Virus record (IMG/VR): IMGVR_UViG_3300043409_001328
Location: 1 to 30,106 of that record
Source of the DNA: a virus
Reading direction: 5' to 3' (one strand)
Length of the DNA stretch: 30,106 bases
Below are positions 1 through 30,106 of this stretch, in pieces. The translations under genes were made by a program, and so were the position numbers. The notes below the pieces were generated by a model. That model ran no database searches. It saw only the letters and a program-made list of their open reading frames with translations, and was not told the DNA's origin. Numbering within the stretch: the stretch's first letter is position 1; each line of letters opens with the position of its first letter.

Positions 1-16
1 GACGCTCTTCCGATCT
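1..16 (+). other. Residual Illumina adapter sequence (not phage DNA)
   Basis: The first 16 bases read GACGCTCTTCCGATCT, identical to the 3' end of the standard Illumina TruSeq read-1 adapter. It is a library artefact and should be trimmed. Its survival at one contig end suggests that many reads ran off a fixed DNA end into adapter, which fits a physical genome terminus at base 17. Confidence 0.95.
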
Positions 17-25
17 GCTAACGAG
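17..25. repeat. Left copy of 9-bp terminal direct repeat (putative cos overhang)
   Basis: GCTAACGAG directly follows the adapter and is repeated exactly as the last nine bases of the window. End repair of a 5' cohesive overhang would leave one filled-in copy at each end. Nine bases is too short for a typical assembler k-mer overlap. The terminase genes lie next to the other copy, as in cos phages. Confidence 0.65.
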
Positions 26-4956: not shown

Positions 4957-5180
4957 ACGACCTGCCTCGCGCGCCACGCGCGGTAGGCCTTCTCCGCTAC
5001 GTGCTTCGCGCTAGCGTCCGTCGGCTGGATGCCTCGCGCGTCGTCGTCGGCGTGGAACGCGCTCAGCTCCCAGGACCACCCGCCGCCACGGTGGGCGCGG
5101 TTGACGATTAGGACGACGCCCGCCTCCATGTCAGCGCGCCAGCCGAGGCCAGTCTCAAGCCAGCGAACCGGCGCGCTCAT
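4953..5180 (-). CDS. Small early phage protein of unknown function
   Basis: A 75-residue protein whose ATG overlaps the upstream stop (ATGA). It contains GGGWSWELSAFHADDD and then a helical AEKAYRAWRARQ end. The order of a tryptophan-rich strand segment followed by an Ala-Lys/Glu helix resembles the N-terminal halves of the two genes downstream, suggesting a single small fold repeated in three adjacent genes. There is no membrane segment or known catalytic motif. An open frame extends upstream but only shadows the neighbouring gene. Confidence 0.65.
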   Translation of the reverse strand: MSAPVRWLETGLGWRADMEAGVVLIVNRAHRGGGWSWELSAFHADDDARGIQPTDASAKHVAEKAYRAWRARQVV

Positions 5181-5584
5181 GTAAGCGCCTTCGCGAGCGC
5201 GGCCCGCTGGTACCCAATCCCGCGGCTTTCCAGACGGGTGACGATGCAGCCAGCGTCCTCGAGGACCTTCGCGTACAGGGCGCTTCCCACGAAGTCCACG
5301 CGGCAGTTGCGCCATCCCTGCGCCTCGACCATGCGGACCAGCTCGGTCACGTGAACGTGGTGCGCCTCGGTGACGCGGTGCACGGCCTGCGCGTCGTAGC
5401 TCTCTACGACCTTGTCCATCTGGACAATGCCGTAGCGCGCGCTGAGCACGTGAACCTCGCGAGCGATGCCGCTCTCGCGCTCGACACGTCGCAGCGTCGA
5501 CCACAGGGGACCCGTGTACAGGTCCGCGACGCGATGGGCACCGGGAAGCTTGCCCGCGCCGCACTGCACGATGAGGGGGCTCAC
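5177..5584 (-). CDS. DUF6884-like / YaaA-type nucleoside-associated protein
   Basis: A 135-residue protein starting at the GTG at 5584, which overlaps the upstream stop (GTGA). It opens with LIVQCGAGKLPGAHRVADLY, followed by TGPLW at 24-28 and VHVLSARYGIV at 44-54. This order (Cys-Gly-x-x-Lys-Leu, then LYTG, then LSA-x-x-G) is the hallmark of DUF6884 and related proteins, which are linked to modified-base or nucleotide chemistry and turn up in phages. A specific reaction cannot be named. The C-terminal half predicts a Rossmann-like alpha/beta end. It sits in the early operon next to small membrane and RusA genes. Confidence 0.65.
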   Translation of the reverse strand: MSPLIVQCGAGKLPGAHRVADLYTGPLWSTLRRVERESGIAREVHVLSARYGIVQMDKVVESYDAQAVHRVTEAHHVHVTELVRMVEAQGWRNCRVDFVGSALYAKVLEDAGCIVTRLESRGIGYQRAALAKALT

Positions 5585-5706
5585 CACGCGAACATCAGGA
5601 ACACGATGACCATGACGGCGGTTCCGCCGAAGATGGCGTCTCCGTGAAGGTCCCACACGTAGCGCGGGTCATGCCAGAGGCAGCGGATGGTGTCGTAGAA
5701 GCTCAT
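5581..5706 (-). CDS. 41-residue single-pass membrane protein
   Basis: This frame starts at an ATG with an excellent AGGAGG five bases upstream and ends in a TGA that overlaps the next GTG start. The product begins MSFYDTIRCLWHDPRYVW and ends with a hydrophobic segment of about 15 residues (GTAVMVIVFLMFAW), which could cross the membrane. It is the first gene of this coupled gene block. No family is recognised. Small early membrane proteins in phages often serve superinfection exclusion or host takeover, but that is only analogy. Confidence 0.7.
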   Translation of the reverse strand: MSFYDTIRCLWHDPRYVWDLHGDAIFGGTAVMVIVFLMFAW

Positions 5707-6743: not shown

Positions 6744-6983
6744 ATGACACACCACGAACTCGCGCTCACAAACCTCCTCACCTTCCTCCAAGAGCACCAC
6801 GCAGAGGACATCTTCGCGGTCACCTACAACGGCGCATGCTCCGTCGTCGTGCTTCGCTCCCCTCCGAAGGGCCGCACCATGCTGGGATGGGAGTGGAACC
6901 CCAGCGACATCCGTGGGCGCATCGCTCACACGACCGCTTCTGGCATCACCGTCTTTGCTCCTGACTCTGAGGTGTCCGCATGA
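6744..6983 (+). CDS. Small protein heading the recombination operon
   Basis: A 79-residue protein, first in the plus-strand operon, starting 6 bases after a likely -10 element, so it may be read from a leaderless message. The N-terminal part is helical (MTHHELALTNLLTFLQEHH) and is followed by strand-like IFAVTYNG, SVVVLRSP and a Trp-rich GWEWNP. No recognised domain. Its stop overlaps the ERF start as ATGA. By position it could be a cro-like regulator, but no helix-turn-helix is apparent. An accessory to recombination is an alternative. Confidence 0.7.
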   Translation: MTHHELALTNLLTFLQEHHAEDIFAVTYNGACSVVVLRSPPKGRTMLGWEWNPSDIRGRIAHTTASGITVFAPDSEVSA

Positions 6984-7696
6984 TCCTGTCACAGTCTTCC
7001 GAGCTCGACCAGCTCGCTACCGCTCTTGCCCTCGCGCAGGGCTCCATCCAGGGCGCGGTCAAGGACCGCACGAACCCTGCATTCAAATCGTCCTACGCCG
7101 ACCTCGCGAGCGTCTGGGATGCCTGCCGCGCCGCCCTGTCCAGCAACGGCCTGAGCGTCTCCCAGCATCCCGGTCGCCTCGAGGACGGGAGCGCCACCGT
7201 GACGACGATCCTTCTCCACAAGAGCGGTCAGCACATCGCATCGGTATGCGCGGCCCTCCCGCGCGACCAGAGCCCCGCCGCCGTGGGGTCTGTCGTGACC
7301 TATCTGCGTCGATACGCGCTTGCCGCCGCGGTCGGCGTTGCCCCGGAGGACGACGATGGGCAGGCGGCACACCACGCGGTCCCGCACGCGCAGCCCCAGC
7401 GGGCGCCGGCACAGGCTCAGCGTGTCGCCGAGGCTTTCGGTGGGCGTGTGGAGAGCGTCGAGCGCATCGCCCCCACGCCCTCGGGCATCGACCCCAGCTG
7501 CCCCACGTGCTCCGGGTCTATGTGGGACAACCGGGAGAAGAAGACGAACCCGAAGGCGCCCGACTTCAAGTGCAAGGACAAGAACTGCCAGGGCGTCATC
7601 TGGAAATACGGCGAAAAGCCCCGCGGGCCTGTCCCGCAGACGCGTGGACCTCTTCTCGACGCGCCGCCCCCCACTGACGACGACATGCCCTTCTAG
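6980..7696 (+). CDS. erf: ERF-family single-strand annealing protein with SSB-like tail
   Basis: A 238-residue ERF-superfamily recombinase, which anneals complementary single strands during phage recombination. The core spans about 8-128, with the family-typical segments NPAFKSSYADLASVWDACR (32-50), LEDGSATVTTILLHKSG and VGSVVTYLRRYALAAAVGV (102-120). A proline-rich linker leads to a C-terminal zinc ribbon with C174, C177, C198 and C203. The protein ends DDDMPF, almost the DDDIPF tip of bacterial SSB. No separate SSB gene was found in the window. The gene overlaps its upstream neighbour by four bases. Confidence 0.92.
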   Translation: MILSQSSELDQLATALALAQGSIQGAVKDRTNPAFKSSYADLASVWDACRAALSSNGLSVSQHPGRLEDGSATVTTILLHKSGQHIASVCAALPRDQSPAAVGSVVTYLRRYALAAAVGVAPEDDDGQAAHHAVPHAQPQRAPAQAQRVAEAFGGRVESVERIAPTPSGIDPSCPTCSGSMWDNREKKTNPKAPDFKCKDKNCQGVIWKYGEKPRGPVPQTRGPLLDAPPPTDDDMPF

Positions 7697-7705
7697 AGGT
7701 GACCT

Positions 7706-8209
7706 ATGACGACGACGTACGACCTCATGCGCGGCGCCGCCCGCGTGCAGATGGAAATCGAAGAGAACTCGGGCCTCCTAAGCGAGGAAACCGCGGCCTT
7801 CCTGACGACGTGGATCGAGCAGTCGGAGGACAAGGTCCTCGCCTGCATGCACCTCGTCCGGCGCATGGAGGCCGAGGCTGAGCTCCTTGAGCGCGAGGAG
7901 AAGGCCCTCCGCGCGAAGCGCAAGACCTGCGAGAACGTGAGCGACCACGTGAAGGCCCTCGCTACGGGGCTTCTTCTTGCCCGGGAGTCGATGGGCGAGG
8001 AGCCGAAGGTCAAGGGGCCCACCTACAGTGCGTGGCTCGCCGAGACGCAAAGCATCGTCGGCCCAGAGGACGTGTCCGCATGGCCCGAGACGTGGCGTAG
8101 GACGAAGGTGGAGCCGGACCGCGCCGCCGCGCTGAAGGCCGCGAAGGCGGGGCAGGAGCTCCCCGACGGGTTCGCCCTGGAGAGCAAGCGGGGTGTCCGG
8201 TGGCGCTGA
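7706..8209 (+). CDS. Siphovirus Gp157-like protein
   Basis: A 167-residue protein with the Gp157 pattern: a long coiled-coil N-terminal two-thirds (LVRRMEAEAELLEREEKALRAKRKT, about 48-72), a central region LLLARESMGEEPKVKGPTYSAW, and a C-terminal segment in which a lysine-rich helix (ALKAAKAGQELP, about 146-157) is followed by a Gly-Phe-Ala-Leu ending. This family is common next to phage recombination and SSB-like genes and has been linked to phage resistance in streptococci, with no proven mechanism. It sits between ERF and a small coiled-coil gene; AGAGGTGA precedes its ATG. Confidence 0.8.
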   Translation: MTTTYDLMRGAARVQMEIEENSGLLSEETAAFLTTWIEQSEDKVLACMHLVRRMEAEAELLEREEKALRAKRKTCENVSDHVKALATGLLLARESMGEEPKVKGPTYSAWLAETQSIVGPEDVSAWPETWRRTKVEPDRAAALKAAKAGQELPDGFALESKRGVRWR

Positions 8210-26528: not shown

Positions 26529-28296
26529 CCGGAGTCTCCGGGGTGGCGATGACGAAACTTCCGCCAACCGTACCCATGAGAGTATCCGCGGCGGCAGGGT
26601 CCATGTTGAAGAACTGAACGAGCATTTCCACGCCAGTCGCGCGGGGTAGCTCGCCCTTCGCAACCGAGGTGATGATGCCCTGCGCGGCCTGTACCTGTGC
26701 GCCATTCAGCGCAACGGCGCTAGCGGGCTGACCCGCTGCCGTCGCGGCGGCGGCGACACTGTCGGCAGGCGCTGCCGTATCGGCGGTCATCTGCTCCTCA
26801 GCGGTCGGCGCCATCTCTTCTTCGGAGGTCGGGGCGTCGCCCTCCTCCTCCACGTCGGCCTCGTCGGCAGCTTCGTGCTCGAGCTCGCGCGCCTTGTTCA
26901 TCGCGTCGATCTCGGCGAGCATCGCCGCGGCGTCCTGTTCCGTAAGCGAGTCGTCAAACAGGCGCAGAGCTTCGACGCGGGTCATGAGTCCAGCATCCAG
27001 CAGTTCGAGCGCGTGCTTGCGGCGCGCGTCGAGCTCTGAGCCTGAAAGGGGAATGGAGCGATACTGAACCGAGTAGCCGCCCTCCGGGTACTGCGTGCCG
27101 AGGACGCGGTTCAGAAGGATCGCCGCCTTCATCACGAGCTCCTCGTCGCTCTCCCTGAAGCTCTGCGCGTAGGACCGTTGCGCCTCGCGCTTGCCTTCGT
27201 TCGACAAGGCGATGGCGTACCCAGAGCGCGCCGTGCCGCCCATACGCTGGATGTCGGCAGGGGAGACGCCCGCATCCTGGGCGAGGCGATTCGCGCAGGC
27301 CGCGATGGTCTGCTCGAGGATCGTCACGTCCTGTCCGGCCTGCCACTGCCCGATGACGGGTTGCTGCTCGTCCGTTGCCCGAAGCATGAGCACGGTAGCC
27401 GGGTCCGACACGACCTCGCGCCGCGCCGACGAGACGCCGCCCTCGAGCGTGGCGCCCTGCGGCTCCGCGCCGACGATGTACCGCTGCGGCCAGCTCGAGT
27501 CCTTGATGGCGTGAAAGAGCATCGAGTAGGACACGGCGATGTTCAGCGAGCCCTCGACGACCTCGACGCCTTCATACGCGTCCCACAGACGGTCGCCGAT
27601 GCGCTCCGCATGGTACAGGACGTAGGGCAGCACGGGGCGCCCGTCGTTCCGGCGGTACGGGTAGGCAGCACCCGAGTAGTTGCCGCCCAGGTAGACGTTG
27701 CTCAGGTCCTCGCCCATCTTCCCGCCGTCCACGTAGGCGCGCACCTCGTAGATCGGGTTCTCCGGGTTCGAGATGTCGAGGACATCCCACGTCCAGCGTG
27801 GCTTGCCATCCACGTCCAGGCGCTCGCGCAGTTCGCTCACCGACACCGGGTAGTCGGGACGGTCGGCGAAGGACCGCGCGACGGTCATGTCCGGAGCGAC
27901 AGGCCGGAACGTGAGACGCCCATCGGCGGCGACGTGGATGCGCTGCCAGTACTCACGGCACCCGACCACCAGCTGCTGAAAGCGGTTCATCGTCGCCCAC
28001 AGGCCGGACCGCTGGATCTTCTCGACGAGGTCGACCGCTGCGGGCATGCGCGTCGGGTGCGTCACGTCGGGAGGCATGACGTACAAGGCGCTCAGCGACC
28101 GGGCGATCTGCCGGAAGATGTTCGACGACATGTCCGGGTAGCCCCACGCGGCTTTGCGAACTGTCCCGAGGTGGATCTGTAGGCGGTTGTGCAGGTCCTC
28201 TTCCCACGTCCCCTCGAGGAGGCGACGGCGCAGGCGCGTGTGCTCGATGCGTCGGATCTCGTAGGGCTCGCTCGAAATGACGGGGATTTGGCTCAT
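26515..28296 (-). CDS. Portal protein
   Basis: A 593-residue portal, located right after the large terminase and overlapping it by four bases. The core contains IRRIEHTRLRRRLLEGTWEE and the portal-like DLSNVYLGGNYSGAAYPYRR and IAVSYSMLFHAIKDSSW regions. After about residue 460 comes an acidic linker (EADVEEEGDAPTSEEEMAPT) and then a helical domain with AVALNGAQVQAAQGIITSVA and PRATGVEMLVQFF, a module known from portals of several phage groups. It forms the DNA gate and the docking platform for terminase and adaptor. Confidence 0.87.
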   Translation of the reverse strand: MSQIPVISSEPYEIRRIEHTRLRRRLLEGTWEEDLHNRLQIHLGTVRKAAWGYPDMSSNIFRQIARSLSALYVMPPDVTHPTRMPAAVDLVEKIQRSGLWATMNRFQQLVVGCREYWQRIHVAADGRLTFRPVAPDMTVARSFADRPDYPVSVSELRERLDVDGKPRWTWDVLDISNPENPIYEVRAYVDGGKMGEDLSNVYLGGNYSGAAYPYRRNDGRPVLPYVLYHAERIGDRLWDAYEGVEVVEGSLNIAVSYSMLFHAIKDSSWPQRYIVGAEPQGATLEGGVSSARREVVSDPATVLMLRATDEQQPVIGQWQAGQDVTILEQTIAACANRLAQDAGVSPADIQRMGGTARSGYAIALSNEGKREAQRSYAQSFRESDEELVMKAAILLNRVLGTQYPEGGYSVQYRSIPLSGSELDARRKHALELLDAGLMTRVEALRLFDDSLTEQDAAAMLAEIDAMNKARELEHEAADEADVEEEGDAPTSEEEMAPTAEEQMTADTAAPADSVAAAATAAGQPASAVALNGAQVQAAQGIITSVAKGELPRATGVEMLVQFFNMDPAAADTLMGTVGGSFVIATPETPVAGS

Positions 28297-29684
28297 CCGA
28301 TCCTCACCGATTGGGGCACGTAGAGTCTTTTAGTCACAAGCTCGATCGCGCCATAACGTAAACTGTCTATCCCGTGCTTATGGTCGTCGTCGTCGCCTTC
28401 CCACAGGCGCAGGTCCTCGATGAGCTGCTTGCACCGGGGATGCACCGTGAAGTCGCCGCGGAGCATGGCGCTATGCAGAATGCGTGAGCCCTCGTAGATC
28501 GAGCCGGCGGGTTTCCACGCCGTGTGGATGCGGAAGCCGAGCGTCCCGATGGGGAGCCGGAGCTCGCGCTCAAAACCCTGGATGAGGAGCGCGTTGGACT
28601 TCTTGCCGCCCCATCGCTTGCCGCCGTGCTTTCGGTCGCCCACCCAGCGGTCCACTGACTCGATCCGCATGTTGTTCCGGCGAAGCATCGCGAGGATGTC
28701 GCGCGCGTCCTGTTCCGGCGTTGTCGCGCCCGTGGAGATGCTTTGGTCGAGGACCCAGAACCGAGGGTTCCCCTCGACGCCGCCCTCGCGTGAGACGACG
28801 ACCAGCGTGGCCACCTGAGAGCCGCCCTCGCTGCCGTGGTCGATGCCGATGCCGACCTGGCATTCGCCCTCGGGCAGAAGGTCCGACGCGTGGATGGCGG
28901 GATCGAACGCTTGAAACACGCGACCCGCGGCAAAGCCGGAGTCCCAATCGCCGTGGATGCGCTGCCGGCGTTCCATCGGGAGGACCTGCGACTCCAGTCG
29001 GTCGATGTCCGCTTGCTCGAGGAGGGGACGCCCGCCGATGGGCGTCGTGTTCTCAACCGTCAGCGGAAAGTGCATGTCCTGCACCACGCCACGCTCCGCG
29101 AGCTCCTTCAACCACCCAAGGGGTGCGCCTACCGGGGTGAGCGTCACGGCGATGCGCCCGCGGTTTCGCATGACGCGCGGGGCGAGCTCGGACCACACCT
29201 CACGCGGCGGCGGTTCATCGATGAGCACGTAGTCGATGGTCGACCCCGCCAGCGCGAGCGCGCCCTGGTTGACGGTACGGATGCGGAGAACGCTACCGTT
29301 CCGGAACCTCACGATGGGCACCTTGCCGACCAGACCACGGCCCGGGATGAAGGTGGTCTCTGGGTCGATAGCCCCCTTGGGGAGCAGGTTCCATAGCTTC
29401 TGCTGGATGCCTAGCGACTGCTCCCAGCTGACGACCACGATCCACGCCTCAATCGGCGCGGCACGGACCAGCGTGAAGGGATGCGCGCCGAGGCAGCGGT
29501 AGATGCAGTCGACGAGGCCCATGGTCGTTTTGCCGACCTGGTTGCCCGACCGCGCGAGCTTGATTGGCGCCGTGCTGCTTAGGAAGGTCAGCTGCGGCTT
29601 CGTCGGCACGAAGTAGGCGAGGGGGTCGGCGACGGCCCGACGTTGCAACGTGTCGAGCCCGGTGGCGATGGCCGCGAGGTTCAC
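28293..29684 (-). CDS. Terminase large subunit
   Basis: A 463-residue packaging ATPase and nuclease. Walker A GNQVGKTT is at 47-54, Walker B YVLIDE at 152-157, and the nuclease region has D282 (in IGIDHGSEGG), an aspartate at about 350 and the HGIDSLRYG motif around D440. Its GTG start overlaps the small-subunit stop as GTGA. It is one gene away from the right end of the contig, which is where cos phages place terminase. It would cut concatemers at the 9-bp overhang site proposed at the genome ends. Confidence 0.93.
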   Translation of the reverse strand: MNLAAIATGLDTLQRRAVADPLAYFVPTKPQLTFLSSTAPIKLARSGNQVGKTTMGLVDCIYRCLGAHPFTLVRAAPIEAWIVVVSWEQSLGIQQKLWNLLPKGAIDPETTFIPGRGLVGKVPIVRFRNGSVLRIRTVNQGALALAGSTIDYVLIDEPPPREVWSELAPRVMRNRGRIAVTLTPVGAPLGWLKELAERGVVQDMHFPLTVENTTPIGGRPLLEQADIDRLESQVLPMERRQRIHGDWDSGFAAGRVFQAFDPAIHASDLLPEGECQVGIGIDHGSEGGSQVATLVVVSREGGVEGNPRFWVLDQSISTGATTPEQDARDILAMLRRNNMRIESVDRWVGDRKHGGKRWGGKKSNALLIQGFERELRLPIGTLGFRIHTAWKPAGSIYEGSRILHSAMLRGDFTVHPRCKQLIEDLRLWEGDDDDHKHGIDSLRYGAIELVTKRLYVPQSVRIG

Positions 29685-30049
29685 CCGTCCGTCCCGGTGA
29701 CGAGACGCAGGGGAGCCCCACCACGCCGCATGGCGATAGCCTCCTCGAGGCGCTCCAGGTGGGGAGCCGGCAGCTGCGCGATGGCCTGCACGATGATGCC
29801 CAGAAGCTGCTCGTCCGACATCGTGTCGTCGGGACGGTTGGCCTTCTCGATAGCCGCGTCGAGGTCCACGCGCGTCTGAAGCGCCCGGAGCTTCAGCGCG
29901 GAGCAGGCTTGCCAGGAGCGCGAGTCGATGGCGTCCTGCGCCGCTTGCTCTAGTTGGACAAGTGAGGCCGTCAGGTATTCGATGGTCGTCATCGTCGGGG
30001 CGAGGGCCGCGTCGAGCTTCTTGTAGGCGCTGCGCTTGTTTGCGGCCAT
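29681..30049 (-). CDS. Putative terminase small subunit
   Basis: A 122-residue mainly helical protein, directly upstream of the large terminase and first after the genome end, where small terminases sit. It has a basic N-terminus (AANKRSAYKKLDAALAP), a central coiled region (SLVQLEQAAQDAIDSRSWQA) and a C-terminal helix with LPAPHLERLEEAIAMRRGG. No obvious helix-turn-helix is seen. AAGGGG precedes its ATG. Assignment is by position, size and the adjacent terminal repeat. Confidence 0.7.
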   Translation of the reverse strand: MAANKRSAYKKLDAALAPTMTTIEYLTASLVQLEQAAQDAIDSRSWQACSALKLRALQTRVDLDAAIEKANRPDDTMSDEQLLGIIVQAIAQLPAPHLERLEEAIAMRRGGAPLRLVTGTDG

Positions 30050-30097
30050 TTCGTCCCCTTTGTGGTCAAATCCGGTGGATAGCGAGAAAAAGTCGAG

Positions 30098-30106
30098 GCT
30101 AACGAG
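30098..30106. repeat. Right copy of 9-bp terminal direct repeat (putative cos overhang)
   Basis: GCTAACGAG, identical to positions 17-25, forms the last nine bases, 49 bases beyond the small terminase start. Joining the two ends with a single copy would give a circular genome of about 30,081 bases. Confidence 0.65.

Follow-up and report, generated by a model that had tools for sequence, protein, structure and literature searches.

An ERF-family annealase of a phage combines a putative zinc ribbon with a conserved SSB-like C-terminal tip

The viral record analysed here in its full length of 30,106 bases (the window) harbors a gene for an ERF-family annealase, whose surroundings and parts are collected in Table 1. 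The annealing domain matched PF04404 (E=6.5e-23, 81.8 bits against a cut-off of 25) and the whole protein matched the Erf-like family phrog_2324 (E=1.7e-36). An AlphaFold2 model built with 21 relatives showed a well-scored core at residues 1-120 and low confidence at residues 122-142, 157-169 and 210-236, with pLDDT below 50 across the last of these stretches. The nearest solved fold was that of the ERF relative Gp77 (9y6u; Foldseek E=1.5e-7, profile E=5e-33), and a Foldseek comparison with Rad52 (5xs0) gave E=0.012 only. By its domain score and its modelled Rad52/ERF-like fold the protein is a member of the ERF superfamily, for which annealing and ring assembly are predicted.

Table 1. Positions in the window of the ERF gene, its parts, the adjacent genes and the repeated end sequence.
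Feature	Position	Strand	Basis or remark
9-nt GCTAACGAG, left end	17..25	.	directly after 16-nt start 1-16
79-aa ORF, stop overlaps ERF start (ATGA)	6744..6983	+	ORF list
ERF-family annealase gene	6980..7696	+	238 aa plus stop; coding 6980-7693; translated ORF
ERF (Rad52-like) annealing domain, predicted, residues 13-146	7016..7417	+	PF04404 match; AlphaFold2 core; Gp77 likeness
Putative C4 zinc ribbon, residues 174-208, CPTC..WDNREKKTNPKAPDFKC..C.GVIW	7499..7603	+	invariant columns in alignment
Pro-rich, hypervariable linker, predicted disordered, residues 209-232	7604..7675	+	low pLDDT and high entropy
SSB-like C-terminal tip DDDMPF, residues 233-238	7676..7693	+	translation; end-anchored conservation
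Sipho_Gp157 / Mu Gam-like gene	7706..8209	+	PF05565 E=1e-13; phrog_253 E=4.2e-16
9-nt GCTAACGAG again, right end	30098..30106	.	contig end common to G002

Behind the annealing domain, four cysteines (C174, C177, C198 and C203) form the pattern CPxC...C...C with two knuckles. They were invariant in an alignment of 21 ribbon-bearing ERFs, as were the WDNR and NPK.PD.KC columns. Being of the metal-binding type, these cysteines constitute a putative zinc ribbon with predicted metal binding. Neither Pfam nor NCBIfam nor PHROGs has a model that matched this region significantly; the best Foldseek match of an AlphaFold2 model of 51 residues had E=1.8, and the best match in a PDB profile search had E=0.09, to unrelated enzymes. 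The translated protein ends with DAPPPTDDDMPF, followed by the stop. By sequence DDDMPF is an SSB-type tip, with acidic residues followed by hydrophobic-Pro-Phe at the extreme C-terminus, and the linker that carries it is predicted to be disordered, as expected of such a tip; the tails of SSBs are disordered too. An OB-fold SSB domain (PF00436) was not found in the ERF protein with Pfam. Translation, the PF04404 match and the C4 pattern hence bear out the sequence-only reading of this DNA in its description of an ERF protein with a DDDMPF end plus a zinc ribbon.

The 79-aa ORF that overlaps the start of ERF matched neither Pfam nor PHROGs. Directly downstream of ERF, the Gp157/Gam-like gene occupies a position often held by SSB in relatives, and the left arm at large contains VapE-like, Prim-Pol and RusA genes as identified by Pfam. 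A DUF6884 / phrog_5935 protein is encoded in the replication arm on the minus strand (5177-5656). At the left end, window positions 1-16 resemble what we take to be Illumina adapter sequence and abut the apparent physical genome end. Window positions 26880-30106 align with positions 3227-1 of record G002 (88.4%), and both contigs stop at that base. Judged from these ends, the record looks like a complete, linear phage genome with short cohesive ends, both of them present. Since the record looks complete, with GCTAACGAG at both ends and the end shared with G002, the absence of an SSB is probably not an assembly gap. No PF00436 match was detected anywhere in the record, no SSB was identified among 20 further window ORFs with Pfam or 18 with PHROGs, and ERF aside no window ORF of at least 60 aa has an acidic-PF end. 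The phage appears to be without an SSB of its own; a tipless SSB of an unfamiliar type could still be encoded. That no SSB gene was found in the window had been stated before, and the apparent completeness of the record makes the statement firmer.

The sequence-only reading had staked its proposal on conservation of the tip in close homologues. In a viral scan with seeds excluding the tip, 80 loci were obtained, and an acidic...PF end was present in every ribbon-bearing relative among them (34/34). The ends seen in these 34 were DDDMPF, DDDIPF, DEDGPGFPF, DEDAPGFPF and DEIPF, and also PDEIPF. Among the remaining 46 loci, 45 were readable and all of these were without the tip; L067 was unreadable. 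In the pooled set of 217 distinct closed ERF ORFs, the tip was found in 47/48 ribbon ERFs versus 9/169 ribbon-less ERFs, ribbon ERFs being over-represented in this set because some scans were seeded wholly or partly on the ribbon motif; one further scan used the seed PPPTDDDM, which lies inside the tip. The single ribbon ERF without the tip was L140. DEEIPY was also among the ends observed, and relatives end in IPY, FPF or MPF. A non-redundant set of 19 ribbon ERFs had Pro as the penultimate residue (position -2) in 18/19 and Phe or Tyr as the last one (position -1) in 18/19. Entropy was 0.30 bits at the former position and 1.02 bits at the latter, against values between 2.10 and 3.22 bits from -7 to -24. 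In these proteins the number and spacing of acids vary, and the Pro-Phe stays terminal while the linker drifts. As background, non-ERF stop-to-stop ORFs were searched for an end P[FY] with at least two D/E in the last 8 residues, which was detected in 32/18,728 ORFs in 71 records and in 2/8,427 ORFs in the 30 records with a tip-bearing ERF. Because a background of 32/18,728 stands against 47/48 ribbon ERFs, the latter counted by a slightly looser rule (at least two D/E within the last 10 residues), the tip is not due to chance. These data support the tip as a conserved, end-anchored SSB-like signal, contrary to the refuting case named in the sequence-only reading.

Acidic ends were also observed on ribbon-less ERFs. 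Five of these, on alphaproteobacterial contigs that are mostly from Rhodobacterales, end in ...IPY (L203, L214, L228, L233 and L236). Two others (L281:4941-5816 and L262:5004-5720) have a different C-terminal region ahead of the acidic PF end. No Pfam match was obtained for the C-terminal regions of these two, and an OB-like appearance, which was an impression by eye, is therefore not claimed.

When the ribbon motif was scanned for by itself, its carriers comprised several lineages of ERF as well as Rad52_Rad22 proteins and small ribbon-only proteins. The viral Rad52_Rad22 ribbon proteins are L116, L168 and L156; L116 ends in DYDEVPF and L168 in EDLAHLPF, and the ribbon-only protein L119 ends in EDPDLPF. 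No PF tip was present on L156 or on eight ribbon-only or unassigned ribbon proteins. A scan of genome contigs, aimed at a prophage that would point to the host, yielded no ribbon ERF in its 80 loci; the ribbon proteins in it were Rad52 or ribbon-only proteins from Gemmatimonadota. PF04098 was matched by 6/6 of the Gemmatimonadota Rad52_Rad22 ribbon proteins scanned, which end in DEIPF (L245 and L248), DQIPF (L247), EEIPF (L249) and DELPF (L252), while L250 has the ribbon without a PF tip. The neighbours common to L245, L248 and L249 suggest a chromosomal gene, and the L245 protein was matched in 16/198 genomes of the same class, strongly in 7. An SSB was detected in 4/6 of the Gemmatimonadota genomes with a ribbon Rad52, and all 4 of these SSBs end in DDDLPF; the ordinary SSB in this phylum ends in DEDDDLPF. 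In the same phylum a double zinc-ribbon protein, in which no annealase domain was found, ends in DEDDLPF (L251:8001-8471). Among cultured phages there was no match to the ribbon cassette of L134.

The distribution of the tip itself was followed by scanning viral contigs for DDD[I/M]PF directly before a stop, which gave at least 80 loci and 77 proteins of at least 60 aa. Among the matches listed for these 77 proteins, 20 were PF00436 SSBs, others belonged to further single-strand-binding families and gp32, 4 were helicases and none was an ERF. As the listed carriers are SSB, other single-strand-DNA-binding families, gp32 and helicases, DDD[I/M]PF marks single-strand-DNA machinery. ResIII/DEAD matches were obtained for 4 of the 77 proteins; judged by sequence starts and lengths, these are L549, L574, L579 and L587, viral helicases ending exactly in DDDIPF and thus carriers of the tip other than SSB.

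To compare records with and without a tip on ERF, two sets were used: the window plus 29 records of at least 20 kb with a ribbon-tip ERF, and 40 of 59 records with a tipless ERF, the omitted ones being those above 40 kb and G095; L034 had been set aside at the outset. The tip-bearing L116, L119, L168, L262, L267 and L281 and the ribbon proteins without PF tip L140 and L156 belong to neither set, G032 was uncounted in the tip tests and G025 was read for 40,000 of its 41,063 bases. PF00436 was detected in 2/30 tip-ERF records versus 12/59 tipless-ERF records; taken alone it is a weaker test for a partner, since PF00436 does not cover many of the tip proteins encoded downstream. In whole records, a non-ERF ORF bearing the tip was found in 2/30 tip-ERF records versus 23/40 tipless ones (Fisher 9.6e-6), and in 4/30 versus 24/40 when PF00436 matches were added (7.8e-5). 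Of the four positives in tip-ERF records, G014 seems spurious and G022, an 86-aa ORF, is uncertain. With at least 4 kb of room, a same-strand tip-bearing ORF within 4 kb downstream was present in 0/29 tip-ERF versus 18/30 tipless-ERF records. For the other 12/30, this strict rule gave no partner with a tip inside the 4 kb; it misses G051, G057, G058 and G060, where the stop-to-stop frame of the tip ORF begins 145-280 bases before the end of ERF. In 14 cultured phages the tip was on ERF in 0/14 and on an ORF in the stretch read in 8/14, four of these being annotated as single-strand-binding. For Firmicutes, an excerpt of PMC8093625 puts the association between phage erf and ssb at almost 80%.

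On the ERF tree the state of the tip has to change just twice, with one clade of 27 and another of 3 (G022, G025 and G026). With two switches only and an independent-pairs test without power, exclusion of tip and SSB was rejected as statistical proof. Tip-bearing ERFs also occur together with an SSB in G015 and G017, the SSB of the latter ending in DDLGYGIPY, and close to a tip-bearing SSB-like ORF in L228. Taken together, the comparison of sequences is suggestive of a tip-or-partner exclusion across ERF phages, with two independent switches.

We propose that the ERF ring recruits SSB-interacting proteins through an SSB-mimicking docking tip on an acquired ribbon-linker-tip cassette, a reading that we hold to be evenly poised between right and wrong. 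An ERF annealase of the Rad52 superfamily would have gained a C-terminal cassette of zinc ribbon, flexible linker and acidic SSB-mimicking tip. The ERF ring would bind and anneal single strands, the zinc ribbon may make additional contacts to nucleic acid, and each subunit would insert its free D/E-D/E-hydrophobic-Pro-Phe end into SSB-binding pockets of host or phage proteins, with PriA, RecO, RecQ, exonuclease I and DnaG as candidate owners of such pockets. Helper enzymes could be placed in this manner straight onto the annealed intermediate, which in many related phages would be the job of a separate downstream phage SSB, and the coating of bulk single strands would remain with host SSB. Three observations lead us to infer docking into SSB-tip pockets: what stays fixed is the Pro-Phe at the free end, the motif is elsewhere a mark of single-strand-DNA proteins, and the tip occurs on the annealase or on an SSB-like neighbour. 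Counting against this reading are the two switches, the records with both a tip-bearing ERF and an SSB, the Gemmatimonadota with both a tip-bearing Rad52 and an SSB, the 12/30 tipless-ERF records without a nearby tip partner, the low PF00436 count of 12/59 and the tipless ribbon ERF L140.

The idea that ERF might replace SSB as a recruiting hub, as suggested by the sequence-only reading, stood in part. It is in line with the conserved SSB-like tip, the apparent absence of SSB and the neighbouring SSB-like protein that often bears the tip. Against replacement, there are two switches only, G015, G017 and L228 carry both, and the Gemmatimonadota cells with a tip-bearing Rad52 have SSB. Full replacement of SSB by ERF is not claimed, and host SSB presumably remains. 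More tentatively, and with doubt prevailing, annealing and an SSB hub may have been merged in one ring protein while the phage dropped its own SSB, on a cassette that would be mobile across ERF, Rad52 (including chromosomal bacterial) and ribbon-only proteins.

Other roles of the tail were weighed against docking. Autoregulatory tails have been proposed for gp2.5, gp32 and SSB, and the acidic tail of ERF could likewise act as a DNA mimic that folds onto the DNA-binding surface of ERF or the ribbon, tuning binding and recruiting nobody. The tail is acidic and predicted disordered, and such tails are common on single-strand-binding proteins. However, a tail working by charge only could do without a constant Pro-Phe in the last two positions, which is kept while the acids vary, and we consider autoregulation unlikely. 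A fixed Pro-Phe end could instead fill an SSB-tip pocket on the adjacent ERF subunit, by which assembly or loading would be freed from host SSB. RecT proteins recognise the host SSB C-terminus according to an excerpt of PMC10711431, and Sak4 of HK620 requires the tip of its cognate SSB in the excerpted text of PMC5928155. Yet no SSB-tip pocket on ERF is known from this analysis, and residues 210-236 of the tail are not placed with confidence in the AlphaFold2 model, which leaves such self-recognition rather improbable.

Recruitment could also be hostile. A multivalent ring of phage tips could compete with host SSB, titrating SSB-interacting proteins off the host chromosome, and the lack of a detected phage SSB in the record would fit. 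A similar tip is, however, found on apparently chromosomal Gemmatimonadota Rad52 proteins, where harm to the host is senseless, so interference of this kind is very improbable. Finally, the tip could limit the half-life of ERF via ClpXP. In excerpts of PMC5143411, an LPF end serves as a degron for ClpXP in certain strains of Streptococcus mutans, and S. mutans SsbA, ending in DDDLPF, is degraded via its last three residues. The same excerpts report no recognition in E. coli and several S. mutans strains and an importance of all three LPF positions, yet the relatives of our ERF vary at the first and last of these; a degradation signal is hardly to be expected.

In this protein an ERF annealase is joined to a proposed docking tail of SSB type and to a putative zinc ribbon that matched no model in Pfam, NCBIfam or PHROGs; ERF annealases themselves are already known. 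It offers a testable case in which an annealase may do without recruitment through SSB, and the un-modelled zinc ribbon and tip form a cassette common to phage ERF and bacterial Rad52 proteins. The host range of SSAPs is thought to hinge on host SSB tips, as stated in an excerpt of PMC10711431. Given this tie, an annealase that brings a tip of its own could act differently across hosts, and it could inform recombineering.

In the titles and abstract openings of the open-licence papers listed by literature searches, no ERF or Rad52 annealase with an SSB-type tip was found. The core domain, the fold and the nearby Gp157 and RusA genes are like those of the ERF superfamily (PF04404; phrog_2324; Gp77, 9y6u), whereas ordinary ERFs have neither ribbon nor tip, the tip being missing in 160/169 ribbon-less ERFs and in 14/14 cultured phages. 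With bacterial and phage SSB (PF00436, DDDIPF) the protein shares a predicted disordered linker and an acidic, hydrophobic, Pro-Phe tip, but in place of an OB-fold SSB domain its DNA-binding module would be the annealase plus zinc ribbon. Rad52_Rad22 proteins (L116 and L168; L245, L247, L248, L249 and L252 from Gemmatimonadota) have the NPKAPDF/YKC ribbon and the acidic ...PF end in common with it; they differ in their annealase family (PF04098), and some of them are chromosomal, occurring alongside an SSB in the same cells. In the Sak4-SSB pair of HK620, as described in the excerpt of PMC5928155, a recombinase likewise works together with an SSB-type tip, NDYPPF, by which annealing is stimulated. 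There, the tip is located on a separate phage SSB, whereas here it is located on the annealase itself.
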